64,000 bases of DNA, from NCBI GenBank assembly GCA_026874595.1, contig CM049316.1, forward strand, positions 60,273,676-60,337,675, written 5' to 3'. Shown here in pieces: positions 1,540 through 36,573 of the stretch. This stretch comes from Sipunculus nudus (taxonomy: Eukaryota; Annelida; Sipuncula; Golfingiida; Sipunculidae). A model generated the notes under the pieces. That model was not told the origin of the DNA, ran no database searches, and saw only the letters and a program-made list of their open reading frames with translations. The position numbers and the translations under genes are program-made. How positions within the stretch are numbered: position 1 is the stretch's first letter; each line of letters begins with the position of its first letter.

Positions 1540-3696
1540 AACCTTGAGTCAACCAGTTATTTGATTTCTGCATATACTTGCGATTCTAATATTATATTAA
1601 ATAGCATTGATTTATACTATTATTGATTTTATGTTGTGTTTTGACATTAGTCCCTTTTCTCTGATATAAGATGTGTTTAGTTTATTCTTACAGAGATATT
1701 CCTTTCATCTGTTAATGAATTAAATAAAGCCATGCAGATTGATGATATATAGTTTGAAATATTTATTTAGATGTTTTCTTATATGATTTATTGAACCAAA
1801 CTGGTAAAATTAAAAAAATAATATATAGAAAAAAAAGATTCACTTTGGATTAAAAAAGGACTGATTTGTAGTTTCTTTTTTGAATTGGCAAACAGTGAGT
1901 GGTATCTTTTTATGATGTCTGAATTCCTGTTTCCACATAATGGAATATATCAAAAGCCCACTTGAAGGATTTATTTAATGTATTAGCTTGTATGGGATGT
2001 GCAGTGCCTTGGCAAACATTTAAACATACCCGACAGGCCCTGCCATAGGTGACATCTGGTGAAAAAAAGTGGAACTAGCACTGGCCATTTGATACACTTT
2101 TGATGTGGTTGGTTCAGGGGCATGTATTCATTGGAATGAACTGTTTTTCTGGCCTAGGTTAAATCCACGATGGAAGGATAATATGTCTTATTTAAGCAAA
2201 TGTAGTTAAAAAAATCATAAGTGTTAAGGGAATTATTAGGTTTAGAAATTTTTTGACTACTGTTACCTACATGTTAGGATTTTGTAGCAGGATTTCAAGG
2301 GATACTGGTTAAAACATCAAATTTAAACACATCATATACTGATGAAATTCCCAATTTAATATGAAGGTAGAAGAAACAAAGGATTAATGAATATTAGCAA
2401 AACATGACGGTAGATAAAGTTAATCTACAATTCAGTGGATAATCAGAAACGGTAAGTAATATAATTAAGAGTTCATACCATGTTTTACCAGTTAACATGT
2501 CTTAAATAAGGAAGTTATATGTTATAACTCTCCAAATCAAATATTTTAAATTTCCATTATATTTTGAAATAACGAAACTCAGGGGATGGAAGAGAATGTT
2601 GTTGTTCAATGAAGGGGACCCTTCACCCATGGGTGGTCTTGATAGACAGGTGGTCTTTCGGACAGGTACCACTGTACTTATAAATAAGAATACAGAGCTA
2701 TACTACAGCCTGTTTAATGATTGTAGATTATTTGTATCACTTTATATAGAAATCTGTGTAGAGAATACTTGATGATAAATTCATAGTTCTGTGTATAAGA
2801 GTCTGTTCATTATAAAACATACATACAGGTTGACAGTCTGCACTGGAGTGTATCTATTTGTATTATGAAGGTTTCTTCAAGGCACTGAAGAAATAATTTG
2901 CAAATTTATTTGAAAAAAATTTCCATCAAACGATGCTGCACATTACTCTGATTTTGTGGTTGAAACTTGACTTTTTAAATATATTGGGTTTAGATGTGTC
3001 AGATGTGGCTGTTAAAATTGGTTGTGTTTATACCTTTGATCTAGTTGAAGGCTGGAGTCAGAATTAAGGGTAAAACAAGCTCCTGTGACCATATGATTTG
3101 TGTAATTTATTCTAAGACCTTTTTAGGTAAAATACCTGATGCACATAACACTTTAAGAGTTTTATCACATGAATTTAACCATGAAGTAAATTAATACAAA
3201 AAGTTTGTGCCAGAAAAGTGAGTCTGCCTGGGAGAAGTTGCATAATTCTGATACAGTACTGAGATACTATAATATCCTAATACATCACTTGACAGAAAAC
3301 TGCTATTTGCTAATGGCAGTATGTACCATAAACACCAACAGGTGGGAAGTTTTGTGTCCAGCCAGGTTAATGAGACATAGTCCTGTGAACCTTGCAGGGA
3401 GATCACTTGACAAGAAGGATATATCAGCTATTTGCTCAGGTGTATAACACTTGATACAGAGCTAAGATATTGCATCTAATTATATTGCTATATGTTGTAT
3501 GCATACAAGACATGCAGTGATATACTCTGTACCGTAATAACTAATTATATTTATCAAAGGAACAGAGTCGGAACAGAGAGAGACTCCTTACATGGTGGCA
3601 GCAGTGGGATGTTACAAGAAGTGGCCATGTGAAGAGCAGTAAATTGTACTTAATAATTAATGTAGTTTTGTTAAATTATCTTATTTGTTTTTTCAG
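1540..3696. other. Probable intron sequence upstream of the first visible exon
   Basis: AT-rich non-coding DNA without a convincing exon. It holds a small dispersed-repeat fragment (2600-2690) and, at 3590-3612, a sequence resembling an LTR-retrotransposon primer-binding site (see findings). It ends in a polypyrimidine tract and a CAG acceptor at 3694-3696. The open frame from 3629 into the exon is fortuitous: it translates the T-rich tract as a hydrophobic stretch. Confidence 0.6.
2600..2690. repeat. Small dispersed repeat fragment (GGTGGTC type)
   Basis: The stretch with two spaced GGTGGTCTT words followed by CGGACAGGTACCACTGTA resembles 24560-24612, which has two GGTGGTCCT words, TCAGACAGG and CCACTG. 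A related GACCACC-rich fragment lies at 55258-55385. The CCACTGTA end suggests a decayed Tc1/mariner or pogo-type MITE terminus, but no complete element is visible. Confidence 0.4.
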
Positions 3697-8312: not shown

Positions 8313-11300
8313 TTTTTAGCTCAGCTGACTGTAAGTCATCTGAGCTATAGCGATCACTCTTTGTCTGTCGGCCGTCCGGCCATCCGGCCATCCTGCCGCC
8401 TGTCCGTTAACAAGGCACAACCGCTGGACCTGGAATCTTCTTACTTTACATCCAGAGAGGTCCATGAAAAATCTCCTTGGAAACCTGGATTTAGGTCTCT
8501 GTTACCCATATCCTTCGAGCTATGGGGCCCCAAAGTACCCCCCAGAATAGTAAAAAATTTCATACAAAAACTTCAATATCTCATTGACTACATCACTGAT
8601 AGTCATGATTTTTGATCATGAGATGTTTCATCTGTTTCTGCAGACTGGTGGCACCACCTGTATTTTTCCATTTTTAACGAATTGTTTTCTCTATTTTAGA
8701 GACCTTTAAAAATGTGAATATCTGTTAACAGGGCACTAATCGTAAAGACTTGACCTAGAATCTTCATTCTTGACATTCTGAGAGACCTATGAAAAGTCTC
8801 CATGAAAACCAGAAATTAGGTCTCTGTTACCCATATCCTTCAAGCTACAGGGCCCCAAAGTACCACCCAGAATAGTCAAAAATTTCATAAAAAAACTTCA
8901 ATATCTGATTAACTACATCACTGATAGTCATGATTTTTGGCATACATATTGATCATGAGATGTTTCATCAGATTCTGCAGACTGGAAGCGCCACCTACAT
9001 TTTTCAAATTTTTACAATTTTTATGCCCCCGCCACAAAGTGACCTACTTTTGACTGTTTTACGGCTCCTGAACATAGAAAATTTCATGAAAAATATGAAA
9101 TATCATGACAAATACACATGTACGGACTTTTTTTCGCAATGCCTGCAGATATTGGCCTGATTTTTGGTGTGTGGCCAGATATTGACCAGTTACAGATTGA
9201 GTTCGCATTTTGTCCTGGTTGACCTACTTTTGACTGTTTTACGGCTCCTGAACATAGAAAATTTCATGTAAAACATAAATTTTCATGACAAATACACTTG
9301 TACAGACTTCACAATACCTGCAGATATTGGCCTGATTTTTGGTGTGTGGGCAGATAATGACCAGTTACAGATCAAGTTCACGTTTTGTCCCAGTTTACCT
9401 ATTTTTGACCGTTTGACGGTGCTCTAACAAAGAAAATTTCATAAAAAGGTGCATATGTATGGACTTTTTTTTGCAGTGCCTGCAGATACGGGCCTGATTT
9501 TTGGTGTGTAGGCAGATAATGACCAGTTACAGATCGAGTTCTTGTTTTCTCTCAGTTGACCTACTTTTGACCATTTGACTGCTCCTGAACATAGAAAGTT
9601 TCATTAAAAATATAAATTTTCATAACAAATGCATATGTACTTACTTTTTTTCCTCAATGCCTGCAGATACCACCCTGATTTTTTATGTGTGGGCAGATAA
9701 TGACAGTTACAGATCGAGTTCGCGTTTCATCCCGGTTGACCTACTTTTGATTGTTTTACGGCTCCTAAACATAGAAAATTTCATGAAAGACAGAAATTTT
9801 TTTGGAAAATGCACATGTATGGACTTTTTTTCACAATGCCTGCATATACTGGCATGATTTTTGGTGTGTTGCTTGATAATGACCCATTACAGATCGAGTT
9901 TGCATTTTGCCCTTGTTGACCTACTTTTGACCATACGACACCTCCTGAACTTAAAAAATTTTTCAAAATTTTACAAATGTTTCTAATTTGCCCAAGGCGG
10001 GGGCATTCGTGTCGTTCCGACACATCTAGTTTTCTCTATTTTTGAGACCTTTAAGGATGTAGTTATCTGTCAACAGGGTTCATATTGGATCTAGAATCTT
10101 CATTCTTGACACACAGGAAAACCTATGAAAAGTCTCCATGGAAAACTGAAATTAGGTCTCTGTTACCCATATCCTTCGAGCTATGGGGCCCCAAAGTACC
10201 CCCCAGAATAGTGAAAAATTTCATACAAAAACTTCAATATCTCATTAACTACATCACTGATGGTCATGATTTTTGGCATACATATTGATCATGAGATGTT
10301 CCATCAGTTCCTGCAGACTGGTGGCGCCACCTGTATTTTTTTTATTTTTTACGAATTTTTTTCTCTATTTTTGAGACCTTTAAAAATGTGGACATCTGTT
10401 AACAGGGCACAAATCGTAAAGACTGGTCCTAGAATCTACATTCTTTACATTCTAAGAGACTTATGAAAAGTCTCCATCGAAACCAGAAATAAGGTCTCTG
10501 TTACCCATATCCTTCGAGCTATAGGGCCCCAAAGTACCCCCCAGAATAGTGAAAAATTTCATACAAAAACTTCAATATCTCATTAACTACATCACTGATG
10601 GTCATGATTTTTGGCATACATATTGATCATGAGATGTTTCATCAGGTTCTGCAGACTTGTGGCACCACCTGTATTTTTCGATTTTTTACGAATTGTTTTC
10701 TCTAATTTTGAGACCTTTAAAAATGTGAACATCTGTTAACAGGGCACAAATTGTAAAGACTTGACCTAGAATCTGCATTCTTTACATTCTGAGAGACCTA
10801 TGAAAAGTCTCCATGGAAACCAGAAATTAGGTCTCTGTTACCCATATCCTTCAAGCTACAGGGCCCCAAAGTACCACCCAGAATAGTCAAAAATTTCATT
10901 AAAAAACTTCAGTATCTCATTAACTACATCACTGATAGTCATGATTTTTGGCATACATATTGATCAAGAGATGTTTCATCAGATTCTGCAGACTGGTGGC
11001 GCCACCTATATTTTTCAAATTTTTACAATATTTTCCTCCTATTTTTGAGACCTTTAAGGATGTAGTTATCTGTCAACAGGGTTCAAATTGTACCTAGAAT
11101 CTTCATTCTTGACATTCTGAGAGACCTATGAAAAAATCTCCATGGAAACCTGAATTTAGGTCTCTGTTACCCATATCCTTCGAGCTATGGGGCCCCAAAG
11201 TAACCCCCAGAATAGTGAAAAATTCATACAAAAACTTCAATATCTCATTAACTACATCACTGATGGTCATGATTTTTGGCATACATATTGATCATGAGAT

Positions 11301-12205
11301 GTTTCATCAGTTTCTGCAGACTGGTGGCGCCACCTGTATTTTTCGATTTTTTTACAAATTGTTTTCTCTATTTTTGAGATCTTTAAAAATGTGAACATCT
11401 GTTAACAGGGCACAAATCGTAAAGACTGGACCTAGAATCTTCATTCTTGACATTCTGAGAGACCTAAGAAAAATCTCCATGGAAACCTGAAATTAGGTCT
11501 CTGTTACCCATATCCATTGAGCTGTATGGCTCCAAAAAAAACCCCAGAATAATGAAAAATTTGATACAAAAACTCCAGTATCTCAATAACTACAACACTG
11601 ATGCTCATGATTTTTGGCATACATAATGATCATGACATGTTCCATCAGTTTTAGCAGACTGGGTGTGCCACCTCTATTTTTTTTTTATTTTTATGAATTA
11701 TTTTCTCTATTTTTGAGACCTTTAGAGATGTGGTTATCTGTCAACAGGGTACACATTGTAACAACTGGAGCTAGAATCTTCATTCTTGTCATGCAAGGAG
11801 GCCCATTTAAAGTGTCTGTAGAAACCTGAAATTAGGTCTCTGTTACCCATATCCTTCAAGCTATAGGACTCAAAAGTTTCCCTCAGAATAATGAAAAATT
11901 TGATACAAAAGCTGAAGTATCTGAACAACTAATCCAGAGACCACCATGCTTCTTTGCATGGATATTGACCATTAAGTATTTTTATTAGTTTCTGCAGACT
12001 GGTGGAGCCACCTGTATTTTTTTTAAAGTTTTCACATTTTTTCTCTATTTTTGAGATATATTAATACAGACACAATCTCAGCCTGTGGGTTAATATTTTT
12101 TGATGCTTCAGTTGAATGGTTATATACTACCATTCAGATGATAAAATTTCCTTTTGCAAATCTCTTCCCAGTCAGCTGAGTGTCATGACCCATGGGTCAC
12201 TTGTT
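8313..12205 (+). repeat. Tandem-cored Helentron-like element, family 1 (complete, with a nested insertion)
   Basis: The 5' end is a T-run followed by AGCTCAGCTGACTG at 8318-8331, which forms a hairpin with GTCATCTGAGCT just downstream. The core is about eight tandem units of roughly 335 bp; the word GGTCTCTGTTACCCATATCC recurs near 8490, 8819, 10156, 10493, 10830, 11158, 11493 and 11834. Most units carry GGTGGCGCCACC or a one-base variant (8647, 10320, 10995, 11323). The 3' end has CAGTCAGCTGAG at 12169-12180, the exact reverse complement of 8320-8331, then the 14-bp palindrome TGACCCATGGGTCA at 12186-12199 and a terminal CTTGTT. No protein is encoded. The plan matches Helentron-associated non-autonomous elements. 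It lies in the intron of the zinc-finger gene on the same strand. Confidence 0.8.
9021..10031 (+). repeat. Tandem-cored Helentron-like element, family 3, nested in family 1
   Basis: A 1.0 kb element interrupts a family 1 unit within a T-run; the host unit resumes at 10032 with CTCTATTTTTGAGACC. Near the 5' end is ATGCCCCCGCC (9023-9033) and near the 3' end its exact reverse complement GGCGGGGGCAT (9996-10006). These are followed by a perfect hairpin GTGTCG-TTC-CGACAC (10009-10023) and a terminal CTAGTT. The core is about five units of 160-180 bp; the word GACCTACTTTTGAC recurs near 9041, 9221, 9557, 9736 and 9917. No target-site duplication is seen, as expected for insertion between T residues. 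No coding capacity. Confidence 0.8.
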
Positions 12206-12787
12206 GACTCAGACTTGGACTCAAGAAAAATATTGGTGTAGACAAGTTTTTTCAATAAATGAAACCGTAAATGCAATACTTTTTGTTGTTGTATATTCAG
12301 TATTAAAGTCAGATAATTTTTTTCAAATTTAAAGTTTGATGAAACTCTGGAACTTTAGGTTCAGTTGTGTAAAAAGGTATTAATATATATTCTTCATAAA
12401 ATATTCTGAAATCTTAAGGGTTCCCGCTTATTTATCCTACTACAGAGGGTGCAGTCATCCCAAGAGCACTTCTCCAGCTTCTGCTGGGAAAATACTGGTC
12501 CAACAGAACTAATCTCTTTCTGCAGATGTAATATATTACAAAATCAGATTGTCCTCAGAGTACTTTCGTATCATATATCTGTGCCCTTATAAAACCCTGA
12601 CCTCAAACATTTGGAAACCACTCATGGGGGCTGCCATTATGTACACATACTAAAATCAGAACGTCACAAGTTGTATATTGCAATATCCTGCTAGTAATAA
12701 ATACATAAAATGTAAAGCATGTCATGGATGGAAATGATAATCTGTTGGTATGTTCTTCCCATTTCGAAACTTCTTCTTTTTTACCAG
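12206..12787 (+). other. Intron of the zinc-finger gene
   Basis: AT-rich non-coding sequence ending in a polypyrimidine tract and CAG acceptor (12785-12787). Nothing else seen. Confidence 0.6.
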
Positions 12788-12850
12788 CTAAAAAAGAAGG
12801 GGACAAAAAGAAGAATGGAAAACCTTTGAAGAAGGGGTCACAAGATGAAG
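12788..12850 (+). CDS. ZNF423: ZNF423/521-like gene, 63-nt lysine-rich small exon
   Basis: A 63-nt exon with a CAG acceptor before it and a GTCAGT donor after it (12851). Joined to the large exon it reads AKKEGDKKKNGKPLKKGSQDE, a strongly basic linker between fingers with no zinc ligands. Both ends are in phase 1 and the length is a multiple of three, so skipping it keeps the frame into the next exon. The basic run could act as a nuclear localisation or DNA-backbone contact segment; that is inference. The splice signals and phase match are the evidence, and I cannot show conservation. Confidence 0.75.
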
Positions 12851-13589
12851 GTCAGTTGTCTTAATTAATATGTATTTTATAACTTAAGACTGGTCAATTT
12901 AACAAGAATGAGTATAATAATATTTTTAGATACTTAACATGTCATGGTTTTCTAGTTTAAAGCCTTCATGATATTCAAGTGCTGGTGATAATTATGTTAC
13001 CTCTCCTATGGGGAAGACATACAGTGTTTGGTCTGTCATTGTTGTTGTCCTTGGTTGTCATCCTCATTTGTCTTCATCTGTGTAATTACTTGTGAACGCA
13101 ATACCTTTTGAACCACTCAATATTTTTCATGAATTTTCAATTGTTTCTACCAAAATCTTTGACAAGTTTGAGAACCGATGACCTTGATCTTCACATTCAG
13201 AGTAAACTCTCAAGAAATCTTTGATTTTTGTTAACCCCAAACCTTTCAAGTAGTCCATATTTTCTTCCACATATTTGGGGATAGGAAACCCATAGGGAGG
13301 AGAGACATCACTGTCTACTCATTCCAGTTCATATCAGCTATTAAAATGAAAGAATAGAGGTTAACAAAGGTAAAAATACACAGGTTATGTTCAGATACAT
13401 ATCCTTATATGATTAAAGTAAGGGTTTCGTTCTAAATCCAATTGTTTTATCAGGTACTCAAGAGAGGAATCTAAAAAATAAATATCTGCATCTAGTACAA
13501 AAAGCTGCATCTAGACCGTTAAAAGTTACAGTGAATATTTTAGCATGTGTGTCATTTGTAGTATAATTTTTCATTGTTTTAATATACAG
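12851..13589 (+). other. Intron of the zinc-finger gene
   Basis: Non-coding sequence between a GTCAGT donor and a TATACAG acceptor. Nothing else seen. Confidence 0.65.
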
Positions 13590-13720
13590 ATGCCTTAAGA
13601 AGTCTGTCCAATGGCCTAGCAGCCACTATGGAGGAGAAGAAAGGTTATTCATGCCAAACCTGTAAGAAAACATTTACAAAGAAATTCAACTTGAAGACAC
13701 ACATGCGGACCCACCAACAG
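13590..13720 (+). CDS. ZNF423: ZNF423/521-like gene, exon with one C2H2 finger
   Basis: A 131-nt exon preceded by a TATACAG acceptor and followed by a GTGACA donor. In the frame passed on from the small exon it reads DALRSLSNGLAATMEEKKG and then one canonical finger (CQTCKKTFTKKFNLKTHMRTH). It ends on a codon boundary after HQQ. This finger is the most canonical in the gene. It sits between the basic linker and the terminal exon, and the phase agrees on both sides. Confidence 0.9.
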
Positions 13721-15144
13721 GTGACATACAGCGTATTCTAGAATATGCGCATTCATTATATTTTATATCCCATGTATACATATGATATATTGTTAAGTGT
13801 AAAATTGACAAAAAAGAATGATATACTATGTAACAATTTGGAGGGAATTAATTCCACTACACAGGAGCTAAATTATGGGATGGCAAGAAAGGTGGGAAAT
13901 GTTCTCGAGGGCTAAGATTAAGAGGACACCAGACTTCCTTGTTGAGAAACGGCACAGAAAGGCAGTTTCCAGGACTTTCATTTGCATTATGAGTATGATG
14001 TGCTAGAACAATAATGACTTGGTGCTGGGGAAGCCAGCTGGAATATAATGATACCGCGCTGTCATAAGGAATTTGTTAATTTTTGCATCATATATTGCTA
14101 TGTTGATGTTGGATGGTACTTACTAATATGTTGGTAATGTGAGAACTGCATAAACCAGATCACGACGACAATAATTTCAAATATTTTATTTTATTCTGAC
14201 ATATATAGATAGTGGATTGGCCAAATCAGTAAGCTTTAAATGAAAGTTTCTCAGTCAATGAATTCTGTATGATATATCAAGCGAGATGAGAGAAAATGTT
14301 ATAAATCTTCTTAACGCCACAAGTTCAAGCATACTGACTGGAAAAATATACAATGAGCAGGTAGTTAAGCGCCACCTGTTATTGCTTAGCTGAATTGAAA
14401 AAAGATCTGGTGGTGTTTACAATATTGGGGTCTTTCCTTGAATTTCATTTAGTCCTCACTATCCTTTGCATGAGGTACTAATATGCTAATGAAGGGGATC
14501 CCTAGGTCCATCAGCAGCCTCATTATGAACTAATATGCAAATACCAGGGATTCACCCAAGTCACTGGACAGGAGTCTAGTTACCCATCTGCTAGAGGTCG
14601 TTTCTACTCTAAATGAATGTCTTCTGTTTAGGCACTGTCAACAGCCAGGACTACTTGTCTCAACTATTCTTGCCTCAGTGACCTCCATCCAGGCAAAAGA
14701 TTACCATTTATTTTATATGTTTTTAGTGGGTACTGGTTATATAGTTACTAAAGGCCTGGCAATTTCTAATAGATTGCACTGACTGTAAAATAAGGATGAA
14801 AGAAAGTATGAAATGTGATAGTAATAATCCCTGTGCTTTTGTGGAAATTTGTAAAACTGAGATACTACTAGACCAGCTAATACTTGATTACTCAAACAAA
14901 AAAGAAACAAGCACAGCTCAAGTTCCTCCATAGAGGCTCAACACTCAAGTTTAAACCAGAGGAAATTGGAAGTAAAACCCAAGTTACCCATCATTTGAAA
15001 TGAGACTTAGTTGGCATGGCTTAAAGTAACTGTACAATAAATACTTGGCAAATTTGTTTCATTGCCATAAAGGTAGAGTACATATGTACATTCAGTCAAT
15101 CTCTTGACGTTTCATATGCCATTTACTATTAATATTTTTTTTAT
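13721..15144 (+). other. Intron of the zinc-finger gene, unique part
   Basis: AT-rich non-coding sequence; no exon, RNA gene or complete repeat recognised. Confidence 0.6.
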
Positions 15145-16576
15145 TGTATCCCCAGACAAAGTCGGGGGATACTATGTTTTCATGGCGGTCCCGCCGCTGC
15201 ATATAAATCTTGTTGGCCTGATAACTCAAAAAATATTTCACGGATCTTTATCAACCTTGGTATAAGTATAGATATGGATGAGAGGACGAGGTTTATTAAA
15301 AATGAGGTCATGACCTTTACTAGGATAGTGTCCTTGACCTTGAATAGGTCCATTTTTTGGGGAAAATCACACAAATTCTTAAATATCTCAAGAAATCTTG
15401 CATGGATTGATCCCAAAATCAAGTTGATCGAAGATCATGGGTAGGGTTGTCATGTTCCAGAAACTGGTGGTGCCACCTATCATTCTTTACTTGTTTTAGT
15501 GCCTTTTAATACCCCCAAAATTTCCACTTGACAGTACTGTGAGCATTAAAAGTCAAAAACTAATGGACAGATTTCTTTTATATTATGCATAAACATAGAT
15601 ATGGGTTATTGGATGATGTTTATCTAAATTGGGGTCATGACCTTTCCTATGAGAGTGGCCTAGACCTTGAATATTCCCATATTTGGTGAAATTCACACAA
15701 AATCTTTAATATCTCAGTAAGGGATACATGGAATGATCCAGAAATCAAATTGACCGAAGATCTTGGATAGCTTTGTCTTTTGCAGAAGACAGGTGGTGCT
15801 GTCTTGTGTCGTTTTCTTGTTAAAATGATGTTAACGCAATAACAAATTAAGAATTTGAGGTACAGTCACCAAACTGATGCATCTTATCAACGGCTAGGTC
15901 AAGTTTGAACATGGATGACCTTGATGCATTTTTTCAAGGTCACAGCAGCAATTATGCTAAAATGATATTAGGGCAATAACTCGAAAAGAATTTGTGGTAC
16001 AGTCACCAAACCCACAGTTTAGATGCATCTTATCAAGGGCTAGGCCAAGTTCGAATATGGATGACTTTGATGCGTTTTTTAAAGTTACAGAGGCAATAAT
16101 GCTAAAATGATGTTAACTTTAATATCTCACTGAGGGATGCATGGATTGGTCCAAAAATCAAATTGACATAAGATCTTTGATAGCATTGTTTTCTGCTGAA
16201 GACAGGTTGTGCCACCTTATGTTGTTTCCTTGCTAAAATTATGTTTAAACTGAATAACTTTCTAAGATTTGAGGTACAGTCACCAAACCCACAAGTTTGA
16301 TGCATCTTATCAATGGCTATGTCAAATTTGAACATGTATAGACATGGGTTACAGAATGAGATATATTTCAGTTTGGATCATGACCTCTCCTATGAGAGTG
16401 ACCTTTACCTTAAATATGCCCATACTTATAAGAAACCATGGTGGCTTGCCAAGTGTCAGTCTCTGCATCTGAATTCAAGATGGGATCCTATTCTTCGAGG
16501 CCGGGGGGGGGGGGGGGGGGGGGGGTTAATTGTCTGGGGATACTATGGCACCTGAGATGCCAAGAAATATGTAGTT
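15145..16576 (+). repeat. Tandem-cored Helentron-like element, family 2 (complete)
   Basis: The 5' end has GTATCCCCAGACAA (15146-15159), which pairs locally with GGGGATAC at 15165-15172. The 3' end has the exact 14-bp reverse complement TTGTCTGGGGATAC (16530-16543), then a hairpin with stem TGGCA/TGCCA (16546-16562) and a terminal GTAGTT. The interior contains repeated blocks: a word GAGGTACAGTCACCAAAC recurs near 15856, 15988 and 16270 with the surrounding 130 bases. GGTGGTGCCACC stands at 15476-15487. A 23-nt G run lies just before the 3' block. A 5'-truncated relative lies at 22785-23254. No coding capacity. Confidence 0.8.
16503..16525. repeat. Poly-G run (23 nt)
   Basis: An uninterrupted G run immediately upstream of the 3' subterminal block of the family 2 element. 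Two to five G tracts here could fold as a G-quadruplex on the + strand. Confidence 0.95.
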
Positions 16577-22784: not shown

Positions 22785-23254
22785 ACTTTAGTGGAACGGG
22801 ATACAGTGGAGCAAAACTAAATTGGGGTCATGACCTTTCCTATGAGAGTGGTCTTGACCTTGAATATTGCCATATATGGTGAAAATCACACAAAATCATT
22901 AATATCTCAATAAGAGGTGCATGGATTGGTCCAAAAATCAACTTGACCGAAGATCTTGGATAGTAATGTCATGTACCGGAAACAGGTGGCGCCACCTGTT
23001 ATTCTTTTACTTGTTTTCGTGCCCTTTAATACCCCCATCATTGCCACTTAACAGTACTGTGAGCATTATAAGTCAAAAACTGTCAGACAGATTTCTTTCA
23101 TATGATGCATATACATTGACATGGGTTAGGGGATGATGTATATTGAAATTCGGGTCATGACCTTTCCTATTAGCGTGACCTTTTCTATGAGTGTGGTCTG
23201 ATATTAATTGTCTGGGGATACTATGGCACCTGCGGTGCCTAGAAATATCTAGTT
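22785..23254 (+). repeat. Family 2 tandem-cored element, 5'-truncated copy
   Basis: Aligns with the second half of the element at 15145-16576: shared words include GGGGTCATGACCTTTCCTAT near 22825 and TTGACCGAAGATCTTGGATAG near 22942. GGTGGCGCCACC is at 22985-22996. The 3' end is intact: TTGTCTGGGGATAC at 23208-23221, a six-pair hairpin GGCACC-TGC-GGTGCC (23225-23239) and a terminal CTAGTT. The 5' subterminal block is missing. The flanks (TACAGTGGAGC near 22804 and GTTCAACTGTA near 23380) may be the ends of an older TA-flanked MITE into which it inserted. Confidence 0.75.
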
Positions 23255-30212: not shown

Positions 30213-30454
30213 ATTTTAGCTTAGCTGACTGTAAGTCAATTGAGGTATAGGAATGGCGCTTTTGCTAATAAACATCCAAGGAGGTCAATAAAAAATATCC
30301 TGGGAAACCTGAAATTAGGTCACTGCGACCTATTTCCTCCTCCACCTCCAATATCTCGATAATTAATGCATGGATTGACACGAATCTTACCTTGAATATT
30401 GACAATAACTAGTTTTGTCAGTTCCCAAAAAGTGGTGGCGCCACCTGTATTTTT
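30213..30454 (+). repeat. Family 1 tandem-cored element, 5' fragment
   Basis: Starts with AGCTTAGCTGAC at 30218, a one-base variant of the family 1 5' block, followed by GTAAGTCAATTGAGGTATAG. It contains one diverged unit with AAATTAGGTCACTG and GGTGGCGCCACC (30434-30445). Sequence then passes directly into the next element, which appears to have inserted in the T-run after the palindrome. Confidence 0.7.
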
Positions 30455-32766
30455 AGCTCAGCTGACTGTAAGTCATCTGAGCTATAGTCATGGTCCATTG
30501 TCCGTCGTCCGTCCGTCCGTCTGTACGTCCGTTAGACTGGCACGTTTTGAAACCGTTAGACTTATGAATCCAAAACCCGGCATACTATTAGATGTCCCAA
30601 AATCTCCTACCATACCAAACATTGGGTTACCAGGACCTCGTTCCTTCGAGATATTAAGGAAAAAACCCTCAAATTTCCATTAAAAAACTATTATCACACT
30701 TCAGGACTGCCTAATATCAAAACCACTTATCTGGTTTTCTTAATATTTTCCCAGACGTAATCTCCTATATATTTCCTATATACATGCCAGAAATTAAGTC
30801 GGTTAAGTATAATTTCTAAGTTATGGGCCCGAACATAATGGACTTTGCAAAAAAATCAGGAAAAATATGTACTCATTTTACATGAAAAATTTTGAAAATT
30901 GAGATTTTTTAAGTTGTAAGCATATAAATAAAATCAGTACCTTAAATTTTGCCCAACTTTGACCATGGCACTTTATTCCTGTAAGTACTATTGATTTAAT
31001 TTTCACAGCATGTAAACATAAGTATTTAATTTGTTTAAATCTGAAATTATAAAATAAAAGCTTGAAAACAAGGCAAGTTATTGATTTTTTTCTTGAGACT
31101 CTATTGATGCAGGGTCCCACTCCAGGTCACTGGAAGTCAGCTATGCCAGGGTTTATGATTTGTTACAGTTACTGGGGGAGATCCCCTGCGATGAGAGGTG
31201 TACAGTTATTCTCATATCACCACCCCATTCCCCCCCCCCCCCCCCCACCGCCAAACCGTACCCACCAAGTGTTATGCAGTAGGCCTAATTGTTATTGTTT
31301 CACTGTAGCTCCTTAATTGTAATGTTGTTTCTACTCCAGTATACAAAAACTTTCCTTGAAAAAGTAATACAAGGTGTAATTCAGAAGATGCCATGTTGTA
31401 TTTCTTTTAAATGATTTTAACAAATATATTAAACCCATCATTATGCTTAAATTTATAAAATAATTTAATATGTAGCAAATAAGGGCACAATTTAAAATTG
31501 TGAAATCTGAATCAACCATTGTTTTTAGATATTTATTGTTTTGTAAATTAATTTTGTGGTAAACAAAATTATCATTTGTATGCATGATGTGGCGTTGTCT
31601 GACAAGATTGAGATTTATGGTGATGCAATTTAGAATTATGAATCAATGTTTATATTCAGATATATATGTTATATTGGAAATGTATAGACATATAAACTTA
31701 TAAAAAAAATTGTTGTGATAAAAAAATGAGGATCTAATACAAACATTTGTTCATTATTTTCCTGCCTCAGCAGAATTGGAGATCAGGCTTTGTTTGCCCT
31801 GTATGTATATGCAGAAGTGTTGCTATTCCCACCATCCCCCCCCCTTCCATTTCCTGCCATTGATTCCTGTGCATTGGGATATTAGTTTTTATTGCAAATA
31901 TAAAAAATTTATTTGATTAAAAAATAATAGGATTAGAATAAAAAGATCTTATTGAAACATATACTTGCCTTAGGAGAATGGAACATAAAGTGATCACCTC
32001 TGTCCATCATATTACCGTTATCATTAAATATATATTAATTATGACAATTTTCCTATAACCACCGTTGAAATAACTTTCATATGCTGTATGTGTTTGGAAT
32101 CAAGCTATTTAAGTCTGAACTTTGAAAGTTAATTATATTCAGTTGTGTATTATTGCAGATGTTAAACTTAAAAAATATGATATAATAAATTAATTAAGAA
32201 ATAATTGAAACTTCATATATTATCAACTTTGTTTGTCTACCAGTCTGTCTGTCCTTTTTTTTACGTATTAAGTAATTATGAATGAACTTTTTTATCCTGT
32301 AAGCATGGTTGTTTTAAGTGAAAATCCTATGTATATACACTATAATAATACAGATTTATTGTAACTCCCACCAAACCACACCCCCCCCCCACCACCACCA
32401 CCAAGTCCTTTCATCTGTGGACTGGGGACATTAGTTATATTTCAACTGTATACATTTTATAAAATAAAAAAATACATATATTTAATAATATATGAATAAT
32501 ATTATAAAAAATAGATTCAATTGAACTAATGTGTAAACTACTGAAATGTCAACAGTTAATCAAAAAGCCAACTAATGATTATGGTAATAGTACAGATCAT
32601 TTGTTCACAAACTGCTCATATGCTTCAGTTTCAACATTAGGAAACACATGGTCAGGTTACAATATTACCTCTTCCTCTATCACTTTATCTCCATTTGATA
32701 TTATTTTAGATTTTTACCTTCAAGGTCAACTTCAGCCGAGCACAGTGACCCATGGGTCCCTCGTTT
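30455..32766 (+). repeat. Helentron-like element, family 1b (complete copy)
   Basis: The 5' end repeats the hairpin-forming AGCTCAGCTGACTGTAAG of family 1 at 30455, followed by a (CCGT)n-like stretch near 30500-30535. From about 30825 it matches the copy at the start of the window. The 3' end has TTCAGCCGAG at 32731, the 12-bp palindrome GACCCATGGGTC at 32747-32758 and a terminal TCGTTT. It therefore shares both ends with family 1 but has a different interior. A C run lies near 31230-31246. No convincing protein. Confidence 0.7.
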
Positions 32767-32879
32767 GATATTTTAACGAATAATTTTCAATTTTTTTACT
32801 ATAAAATTACAACAATCATGTCAGTTTCTCAGCTTTGATAACATATAGTGTCCGAAAACCTGGTGTGTTTATTGATCAC

Positions 32880-33780
32880 AAGTGGATGCCCTATAGTAAT
32901 CACCCTCTCTTTCTGTCTGTCTGTCTGTCTGTCCATCCACACAAATTGGCTTCAAGATGATAACTCCAGGTTGGATTGACACATGGATTTCAAACCTGAC
33001 TTAAATATGGCCCACCACTAAAGCAAGAACCTGTTTGAATTTTTGGTCATAAGGTCAAAGGTGAAGGTCACAGGAGTCATTTAAAAGGTTATGGCTGCAT
33101 TTCAAGCCAAGCTTTTCATCCCAAACTTTCCATCTTGCGCATTTAACTGACTTGCCAGGATGGGGAGAGCATTAATGAATTTGGGGTCACAAGGTCAAAG
33201 GTCAAGGTCACAGGAGCCATCTGTTCACAAAATAGTTTCCACATGATAAATCCAGTTCAGTTTGACATATTGGTTTCAAACTTATCTTATTATATTAAAT
33301 TTCATCACAAGGTCACTGGGCCCATCCATTCACAAATTAGTTTAAGGATGATAATTCTGCTTTGGATAGGCAGATTGGCTTGAACTTGATTAATTAATGA
33401 CCCACCACTTAAGAAAATTCATTTTGATTTTCAGGGTCCAGAGATCAAAGTTGAAGGTTACAGGAGCCACAACTTTAAAAAGATTGTGGATGCAATGTAA
33501 ATCAATCTTTTCATCCCAAAGCTTCCACTTTTTACACATAGCTTACTTGCCAAAAGTGAGGAAATCTGTAGATTTTGAGGTTACCTGGTCAGAGGTCAAG
33601 GTCACTTTTTAAAAGATTGTTACAATAATCTTATTGCTGCAAGTTCAAGAATAATAAGTTCTAAGAAGTTTTGGTCATGAGGTCATTGGTTAAGGTCACA
33701 GGACCTTCTGAAAAATTTCTTAAACAATATCCTTAAAGACAAATTCAGCTGAGCGTCGAGACTCATGGGTCTCTAGTTAT
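32880..33780 (+). repeat. Tandem-cored Helentron-like element, 5'-eroded
   Basis: Starts near a CTATAGTAATCACCCTCTCTTTCTG word that corresponds to the sequence just after the 5' hairpin in the other copies, with (CTGT)5 at about 32915-32935. The interior repeats the word AAGGTCACAGGAGCCA-like text (near 33070, 33205, 33455, 33690). The 3' end has ATTCAGCTGAG (33743), a hairpin GAGAC...GTCTC (33757-33773) and a terminal CTAGTT. The 5' AGCTCAG block was not found. Confidence 0.6.
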
Positions 33781-35977: not shown

Positions 35978-36556
35978 TTTTTAGCTCAGACGACTGAAAG
36001 TCATCTGAGCAATAGTGATCAATCTTTTCCGTCTGTCCGTCCGTTAACCAGGCACAAATCGTAACCGCTGGACCTGGAATCTCCTTGACATCCAGGCAGG
36101 TCGATGAACAATTTCCTTTGAAACCTGAATTAAGGTCTCTGTTGCCCATATCCTCCGAGCTATGGGATTCGAAAGTACCCCCACAATAATAAAAAAAATT
36201 GATACCAAAGCTCCGGTACCTGCATAACTAAAGCATTGATCATTATGATTTTTTGCATGTCTATTGATCATGTAATGTTTCATCAGTTCCTGTAGACTGG
36301 TAGCCCACCTGTACTTTTTCGAATATTAGGCATTTTCCCCCTCTATTTTAGAGACCTTCAAACATGCGGTCGTCCGTTAACAGGGCACAAATCGTAACCC
36401 ATGGACCTAGAATCTTCATGGAGGTCCAAGAAAAATATCCTTGGAAACTTATAATTAGGTCTCTGATAACCATATCCTCCAATCTTTTGGGCTCATAAGT
36501 ACCTCCAAGAATAATTTGAAAAAATAATATACAAAAGCTCCAGTATCTGTATAACT
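35978..36556 (+). repeat. Family 1 tandem-cored element, left part, interrupted by a LINE
   Basis: Starts with AGCTCAGACGACTG at 35983 and the pairing GTCATCTGAGC. It contains one and a half family 1 units (GGTCTCTGTTGCCCATATCC near 36136; GGTCTCTGATAACCATATCC near 36457). The unit is cut at 36556-36571 by the LINE and resumes at 41401 with TGACTCTGTACATGCATATTGACC and GTTTCATCAG, in register with the unit at 10257-10305. The right remnant fades out near 41475 and lacks the 3' end. Confidence 0.8.
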
Positions 36557-36573
36557 AATTATAGATCGCCAAG

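Follow-up and report, generated by a model that had tools for sequence, protein, structure and literature searches.

In oyster and other bivalve genomes, many satellite-like arrays are carried by non-autonomous Helentrons (HINEs; PMC7492417). According to the accessible part of that source, the Cg_HINE elements of Crassostrea gigas combine subterminal inverted repeats (subTIRs) of 11–12 bp and a complementary 5' inverted repeat with a 3' subTIR and palindrome, a GTCC/GTCT-type microsatellite, and a central satellite-like array; they use T-rich targets without duplicating them, and several unrelated families occur in one genome. Here we describe three element families (F1, F2, and F3) in a 64,000-nucleotide window on contig C11 of the genome of Sipunculus nudus, together with HelB, an autonomous Helentron from elsewhere in this genome that has both ends of F1.

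The window elements resembled Cg_HINE in these respects, though less clearly so for T-rich targets, a likeness drawn from described features and not from sequence comparison, and the GTCC/GTCT-type segment of F1 agreed with that of Cg_HINE in position and motif type. In contrast, the core unit of F1 (~337 bp) exceeded the average of 140–180 bp given for Cg_HINE clusters, and no counterpart of the T-[TAC]-A context of F2 is described in the accessible part of PMC7492417. The oyster authors state that they were unable to connect any autonomous Helentron to Cg_HINEs, whereas for F1 such a partner was found in HelB. Pearl/CvE, DTC84, and MgE elements of other bivalves, cited in the same source, are likewise described as central tandem repeats between conserved flanks. 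The relation to an autonomous element recalls the HINE/DINE-1 elements of mite, Culex, and Drosophila, for which the accessible part of PMC4067079 reports HINEs with the subTIRs and stem loop of an endonuclease-bearing Helentron, varying numbers of T at the ends, and non-autonomous copies that outnumber autonomous ones. However, mite HINEs are 84–99.9% identical to their partner (PMC4067079), while F1 and HelB were close at their ends only and 68–81% identical in the core.

F1, F2, and F3 represent a known kind of element in another genome, with satellite-like cores in two of the three families. It is very probable that all three are HINEs copied, without target duplication, by autonomous Helentrons that recognize their ends, that F1 is served by HelB, and that F3 jumped into a T-run of the F1 core. 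As far as the literature searched shows, a Helentron partner with the same ends is new for an array HINE of the bivalve type: a search that left subscription papers and preprints mostly outside turned up no paper in which tandem-repeat HINEs of bivalves were assigned an autonomous partner.

Termini, subterminal repeats, and cores of F1, F2, and F3

In searches of the 1.43-Gb genome, the best ~40 candidates per search were scored, so that the copies read were the nearest relatives of the window elements and not a random sample. Loose first-look counts amounted to 3139 candidates for the F1 5' end, 2033 for the F1 3' end, 1737 for the F2 5' end, and 1573 for the F3 3' end.

End-to-end comparison of 100-base end stretches confirmed the exact subTIRs of 12 bp (F1), 14 bp (F2), and 11 bp (F3) that had been claimed in a sequence-only reading of the window (Table 1). 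For comparison, 60-base pieces of the window, shorter than the 100-base stretches in which the subTIRs were found, were paired at random; in 2000 such pairs, the longest inverted match reached at least 11 bases three times and never exceeded 12. This control indicated that subTIRs near the ends of F1, F2, and F3 were not due to chance. In each family the 3' subTIR was located 25–33 bases from the element end, and a 3' palindrome was visible in the sequence. Judged by frame length, the elements had no coding capacity, with longest stop-to-stop frames of 100, 99, and 92 amino acids in F1, F2, and F3, respectively. Tandem Repeats Finder (TRF) identified core arrays with a period of 337 in F1 and 162–180 in F3, but none in F2 at the default score; the repeated core earlier attributed to all three families was thus recovered in two of them.

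Genome copies stopped within a few bases of the previously proposed ends with TAGTT or TTGTT. Among the best-scoring F1 copies, window included, 22 of 26 distinct copies started with TTTTTAG and all 30 copies read at the 3' end finished with CTTGTT; in the F1 3' search, 38 of the 41 matches scored stopped at query position 149 or 150, corresponding to window position 12205 or 12206. Sequences outside F1 copies were mostly unrelated, the exceptions being the pairs L002/L058 and L052/L055, which had common 5' flanks. At least five T preceded ATGCCCC in 19 of 20 F3 copies. Two other F3 copies (L071 and L006) kept a 5' inverted repeat and a microsatellite, which the window copy has lost. For F2, matches started at window positions 15139–15143 in 28 of 39 non-self rows and at 15122–15137 in the other 11, and CTAGTT formed the end of 10 of the 14 copies in which both ends were called.

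Canonical Helitrons start with 5' TC, end with 3' CTRR, insert between A and T, and have no subTIRs. The window elements did not conform to this description, since subTIRs were present and F1 ended in CTTGTT, although F2 has a CTAG end and a preceding A. Most of the published HINE features tested were found in F1, F2, and F3, which supports their identification as non-autonomous Helentrons, the class proposed in the sequence-only reading.

The bases next to F2 nevertheless differed from a T|T insertion site: in all 30 F2 copies, window included, T-[T/A/C]-A preceded TTGTATCC. A constant A directly before the element and a constant T two bases earlier would be expected if F2 were a member of a group of rolling-circle elements with Helitron-type ends (5' TT, 3' CTAG, A|T insertion) that is distinct from the T|T Helentrons serving F1 and F3. 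A pattern with TAG as its last bases matched ten F2 3' ends, nine of which were followed by T, and the same end type (5' TT, 3' CTAG, A|T insertion) is reported for proto-Helentron-Pi of Phytophthora in the accessible part of PMC4067079. However, F2 also agrees with HINEs in its subTIR, 5' inverted repeat, and 3' palindrome, and the constant A may be a base of the element itself. On balance, membership of a separate group appears rather unlikely.

Further sequences of these types were seen in the window. Positions 22817–23254 held a remnant of a second F2-type element (F2 3' end, 92% over 51 bases), and three more F1-type 5' ends were found (30214–33778 and 35978–36557). The F1-type 5' end at 30450 may belong with a different 3' end (...CATGGGTCTCTAGTT) near 33778, while that at 35978 was followed by diverged F1 core units.

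HelB and other Helentrons in the genome

The Helitron Rep family PF14214 gave at least 143 matches in the genome, seven of them in frames of 2229–2426 amino acids, when 150 of 195 candidates were scored. HelB encodes a protein with matches to Rep (PF14214, E 7e-28), PIF1 (E 5e-23), and DUF6570 (E 1e-16). An Exo_endo_phos match (E 5e-5), obtained with a piece without the last residues, scored 23.6 bits and fell just below the Pfam cut-off of 24.5. Rep motif 2 was VEFQQRGSPHIH, with the S that is listed as a Helentron sign in the accessible part of PMC4067079. Judged from these motifs, the open frame corresponds to the Helentron plan of a Rep, a Pif1 helicase, and, by a weak match, a putative C-terminal endonuclease. 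When the C-terminal 260 residues of HelB were compared with solved structures, only weak Pif1 and unrelated matches were obtained (best E 0.03).

An active helper element had been predicted in the sequence-only reading, which proposed a search for a Rep/helicase element with the same ends. That search yielded HelB, an autonomous Helentron partner for F1 with both ends and the kind of core in common. Among the seven Helentron loci examined on the 3' side, none offered a helper with the ends of F2 or F3, and the evidence for activity consisted of near-identical copies and open frames. Two HelB copies with different flanks were identical to the F1 5' end at 54 and 57 of 60 bases, and the first 19 bases were identical between F1 and HelB. 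Twelve F1-core-like units stood behind the HelB 5' end, 11 with 73–81% identity and one with 68%. At the 3' end, 33 of the last 36 bases were identical. Two other Helentron loci, L093 and L101, also ended like F1 (31/36 and 27/36 bases, respectively).

With a 401-base query from the HelB 3' part, in which the element end (CTTGTT) is at base 323, six further copies spanned base 1 to 320–327 with 92–98% identity; four of these, like HelB, had a PF14214 match ~4.7 kb upstream of the element end. Of the 41 matches, a further 28 started at 169–235 and nearly all reached the same end, which suggested that non-autonomous elements related to the HelB 3' part also exist.

Both HelB copies (L103 and L104) contained two F1-type 5' ends, spaced by two or three core units, and the inner end was located in a core T-run, as would result from a nested insertion. 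HelB might therefore have gained its F1-like 5' part by inserting into an F1 copy, in which case the shared core would be no sign of descent. However, core-like units were present behind the inner 5' end as well, and the 3' terminus is independently common to HelB and F1. Moreover, the outer 5' end had different flanks in the two copies, indicating that it works as an element end. We consider acquisition by nested insertion unlikely.

Another Helentron, L089, reads as encoding a complete Helentron protein, with an endonuclease match at E 3.7e-13. Its N-terminal repeat region matched STPRs weakly, and downstream of its open reading frame (ORF) lie repeats several hundred bases long; on the 3' side examined, its 3' end was not located. 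In L100, reverse-strand positions 1929–3292 were occupied by a 1.3-kb repeat that ends in a short hairpin followed by an A-rich tail and occurs in numerous partial copies, most of them 73–86% identical. In the search for F2 or F3 ends, the L100 3' part with matches in many places was set aside as another repeat.

Table 1. Coordinates of the elements in the window, their parts, a neighboring coding stretch, and two Helentrons. Positions refer to the window unless a contig is given.
Feature	Position	Strand	Evidence
F1 HINE, outer element, nested F3 included	8313..12205	+	copies stop at both ends
F1 5' terminus, TTTTT-AG and subTIR CTCAGCTGACTG	8313..8331	+	19 bases identical to HelB 5' terminus
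F1 5' subTIR CTCAGCTGACTG	8320-8331	+	exact inverted match to 12169-12180
F1 5' inverted repeat complementary to subTIR, one mismatch	8334..8347	+	read in sequence
F1 GTCC/GTCT-type microsatellite segment	8363..8407	+	read in sequence
F1 core array, ~337-bp units, broken by F3	8403..12056	+	TRF 10086-12056, 5.9 copies, 85% matches; blastn units
F1 3' subTIR	12169..12180	-	exact inverted match, 12 bp
F1 3' palindrome TGACCCATGGGTCA, then CTTGTT end	12186..12199	+	read in sequence; common to HelB
F3 HINE in F1 core, TTTTT-ATGCCCCCGCC ... CTAGTT, five-T start included	9018..10031	+	copies, empty core units
F3 5' subTIR ATGCCCCCGCC	9023-9033	+	exact 11-bp inverted match to 9996-10006
F3 3' subTIR (9996-10006) and hairpin GTGTCG-TTC-CGACAC (10009-10023)	9996..10023	+	inverted match, fold
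F2 HINE, TTGTATCCCC ... GTAGTT (most other copies CTAGTT)	15144..16576	+	copies, end reading
F2 5' subTIR GTATCCCCAGACAA	15146-15159	+	exact 14-bp inverted match to 16530-16543
F2 3' subTIR (16530-16543) and short hairpin TGGCA-CCTGAGA-TGCCA (16546-16562)	16530..16562	+	inverted match, fold
C2H2 zinc-finger coding stretch of host gene, between F1/F3 and F2 loci	13640..13720	+	Pfam zf-C2H2 E 1.4e-07, one exon
HelB, ~14.9-kb Helentron	C17, ~35640366 to 35625477	minus	2342-aa open frame
L089, other Helentron	C11:50379400-50388900		OTU - Rep - Pif1 - Exo_endo_phos in 2208-aa ORF

Target sites and nesting in the F1 core

No excess of target duplications was seen, in agreement with the claim made from the window alone. 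In 23 copies (8 F1, 13 F2, and 2 F3; 27 flank pairs minus four that were ill-defined, namely L038, L041, L081, and the element at window position 30450), the longest direct repeat between flanks averaged 2.39 bases, compared to 2.29 in re-paired flanks, with a maximum of 4. The additional claim that insertion takes place in T-runs found some agreement in F3, as its empty units (L011 and L008) carried eight consecutive T at the point corresponding to the five T and four T of the filled site. For F1 and F3 in general it was overstated, because the five T at their left ends were nearly constant across copies and are therefore largely the elements' own; F2 showed the T-[T/A/C]-A context.

For an F1 copy at C5:35.018 Mb, the joined flanks were crossed by 10 of 14 non-self matches with 72–86% identity, a list that is incomplete in that it omits the L095 paralogue found by another search. 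In L095 the empty site (81% identity) read GAGAATTGTTTTAGG, with TTGTT at the place corresponding to the left TTTTT and the right TTGTT of the filled copy. Taken alone, this site would also fit a five-base duplication, which is disfavored because the left TTTTT and right TTGTT were constant in copies with other flanks. A joined-flank search for an F2 copy (L075) returned non-self matches that extended no more than 11 bases into the 5' flank, besides covering the 3' flank, itself a repeat with 881 first-look candidates. The flanks in L014 belonged to a diverged repeat, for which no empty unit was found.

The three families that the sequence-only reading had placed within 9 kb are all real, but with F3 nested in F1 they do not amount to three adjacent arrivals. 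In the window and in five other loci (L006, L022, L096, L127, and L128), F3 interrupted the F1 core unit at approximately position 302. The joined flanks of the window F3 matched uninterrupted core units at 94% identity (L011, L008, and elsewhere in the window F1). Because such uninterrupted units exist and F3 occupies the same T-run of the core at further loci, the cores of HINEs look like landing pads. Consistent with this picture, F1 3' ends immediately precede F1 core in L013 and L029, and the second 5' end of HelB lies in a core T-run.

The same arrangement could have arisen if F1 with its nested F3 were an old composite transposing as a single element with two arrays, and two-array elements are known in oyster (accessible part of PMC7492417). 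In a search with the F3 5' end of an F1-borne copy, including the 57 bases before ATG, 24 of 40 matches ran from base 1 or 2 and thus crossed the junction at the same core place, while the other 16 started at 33–53, near the F3 start; with the F3 3' end, 33 of 40 matches passed through the flank and ended no more than 3 bases short of the query end, and the remaining seven stopped 10–23 bases into the flank. Both queries held F1 flank and were hence biased. When 20 F3 copies were drawn without F1 flank, only two adjoined F1-like sequence, one of them at another core T-run, and of three F3 copies taken from short-stopping matches, L098 and L099 lie outside F1. Moreover, F3 was preceded by 1, 2, or 4 core units at different loci, in diverged F1 subfamilies, and the core unit before F3 in the window was no closer to that of L006 than to other units (L006 ranked 29th of 201 matches). 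The sole near-identical pair, L006 (C2:3.49 Mb) and L126 (C2:0.21 Mb), shared 1.75 kb with 99% identity in opposite orientation; as this includes outside flank, the pair is one duplicated stretch, either a recent duplication or an assembly duplicate, and not two composites. Transposition as a unit was set aside, since flank-free F3 copies, unit comparison, and outer flanks gave it no support, and movement of an old composite is improbable. Repeated insertion into a favored core site is a good deal more probable as the source of the pattern.

The short size of F1, F2, and F3, the lack of a stop-free frame above 100 amino acids, and their inverted repeats would also suit cut-and-paste miniature inverted-repeat transposable elements (MITEs) with terminal rather than subterminal repeats, but this explanation was dismissed as highly improbable in view of the lack of excess target duplications in 23 copies, the distance of the 3' inverted block from the element end (25–33 bases), and, in a search directed at Rep-type elements, the Rep-helicase element with both F1 ends.

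Proposed copying mechanism and possible origin of the arrays

In Helentrons, Rep nicks the ends, the helicase peels off a strand, and the copy enters a T-rich site without duplication. By the mechanism proposed here, the Rep-helicase-endonuclease of autonomous Helentrons would recognize the subTIR and inverted repeat at the 5' end of HINEs and the subTIR, palindrome, and CTTGTT or CTAGTT at their 3' end, after which recognized HINEs would be copied and then inserted without target duplication. HelB would serve F1 in the same genome, and F1 would be related to a HelB-like element by internal deletion, with the 5' end, the core array, and the terminal ~36 bases retained. F3 would have jumped into a T-run of an F1 core unit. 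From the ends in common we infer that F1 uses the HelB protein; action of that protein on F1 ends, rolling-circle copying, current mobility, and derivation of F1 from HelB rather than the reverse are likewise readings of the sequences.

Several observations weigh against this mechanism. In addition to the F2 insertion context and the L095 site discussed above, the folding energy of the 3' hairpin was no better than that of shuffled sequences in F1 (z -0.69), F2 (z -0.65), and HelB (z 0.16); only the F3 hairpin (z -2.3) was better than most shuffles, and the best fold of the F1 3' end paired the subTIR with the palindrome. The hairpin that the sequence-only reading saw near each 3' end was thus present as a palindrome in all three families, but as a fold that beats shuffles in F3 only. 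By the rule that an identical subTIR of at least 11 bp defines a Helentron family and at least 80% identity over the last 60 bp a subfamily (PMC4067079, accessible part), F1 and HelB belong to one family, as their first 19 bases are identical, but not to one subfamily, as their last 60 bases agreed in 47 of 65 aligned columns. Together with the core identity of 68–81%, this indicated that HelB as sampled is a relative of the parent of F1 and not identical to it. Finally, the 3' end was not located in four of the seven Helentron loci for which the 3' side was fetched, and F2 or F3 ends were found in none of the seven (L089/L100, L090, L091/L094, L092, L093/L095, L101, and L102), which gave chance-level matches only.

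Since HelB itself carries a core array behind its 5' end, we tentatively suggest that satellite-like HINE arrays were born inside an autonomous Helentron and not captured. T-runs of the arrays could then have become landing pads, as for F3 in F1, F1 in F1, and the HelB 5' end in F1-type core, so that nesting would build two-array elements and spread tandem repeats. An open-frame Helentron with both ends and the core kind of F1 makes the relation between HINEs and Helentrons testable, and nested units such as F3 in F1 represent one direct route to two-array elements like those of oyster.

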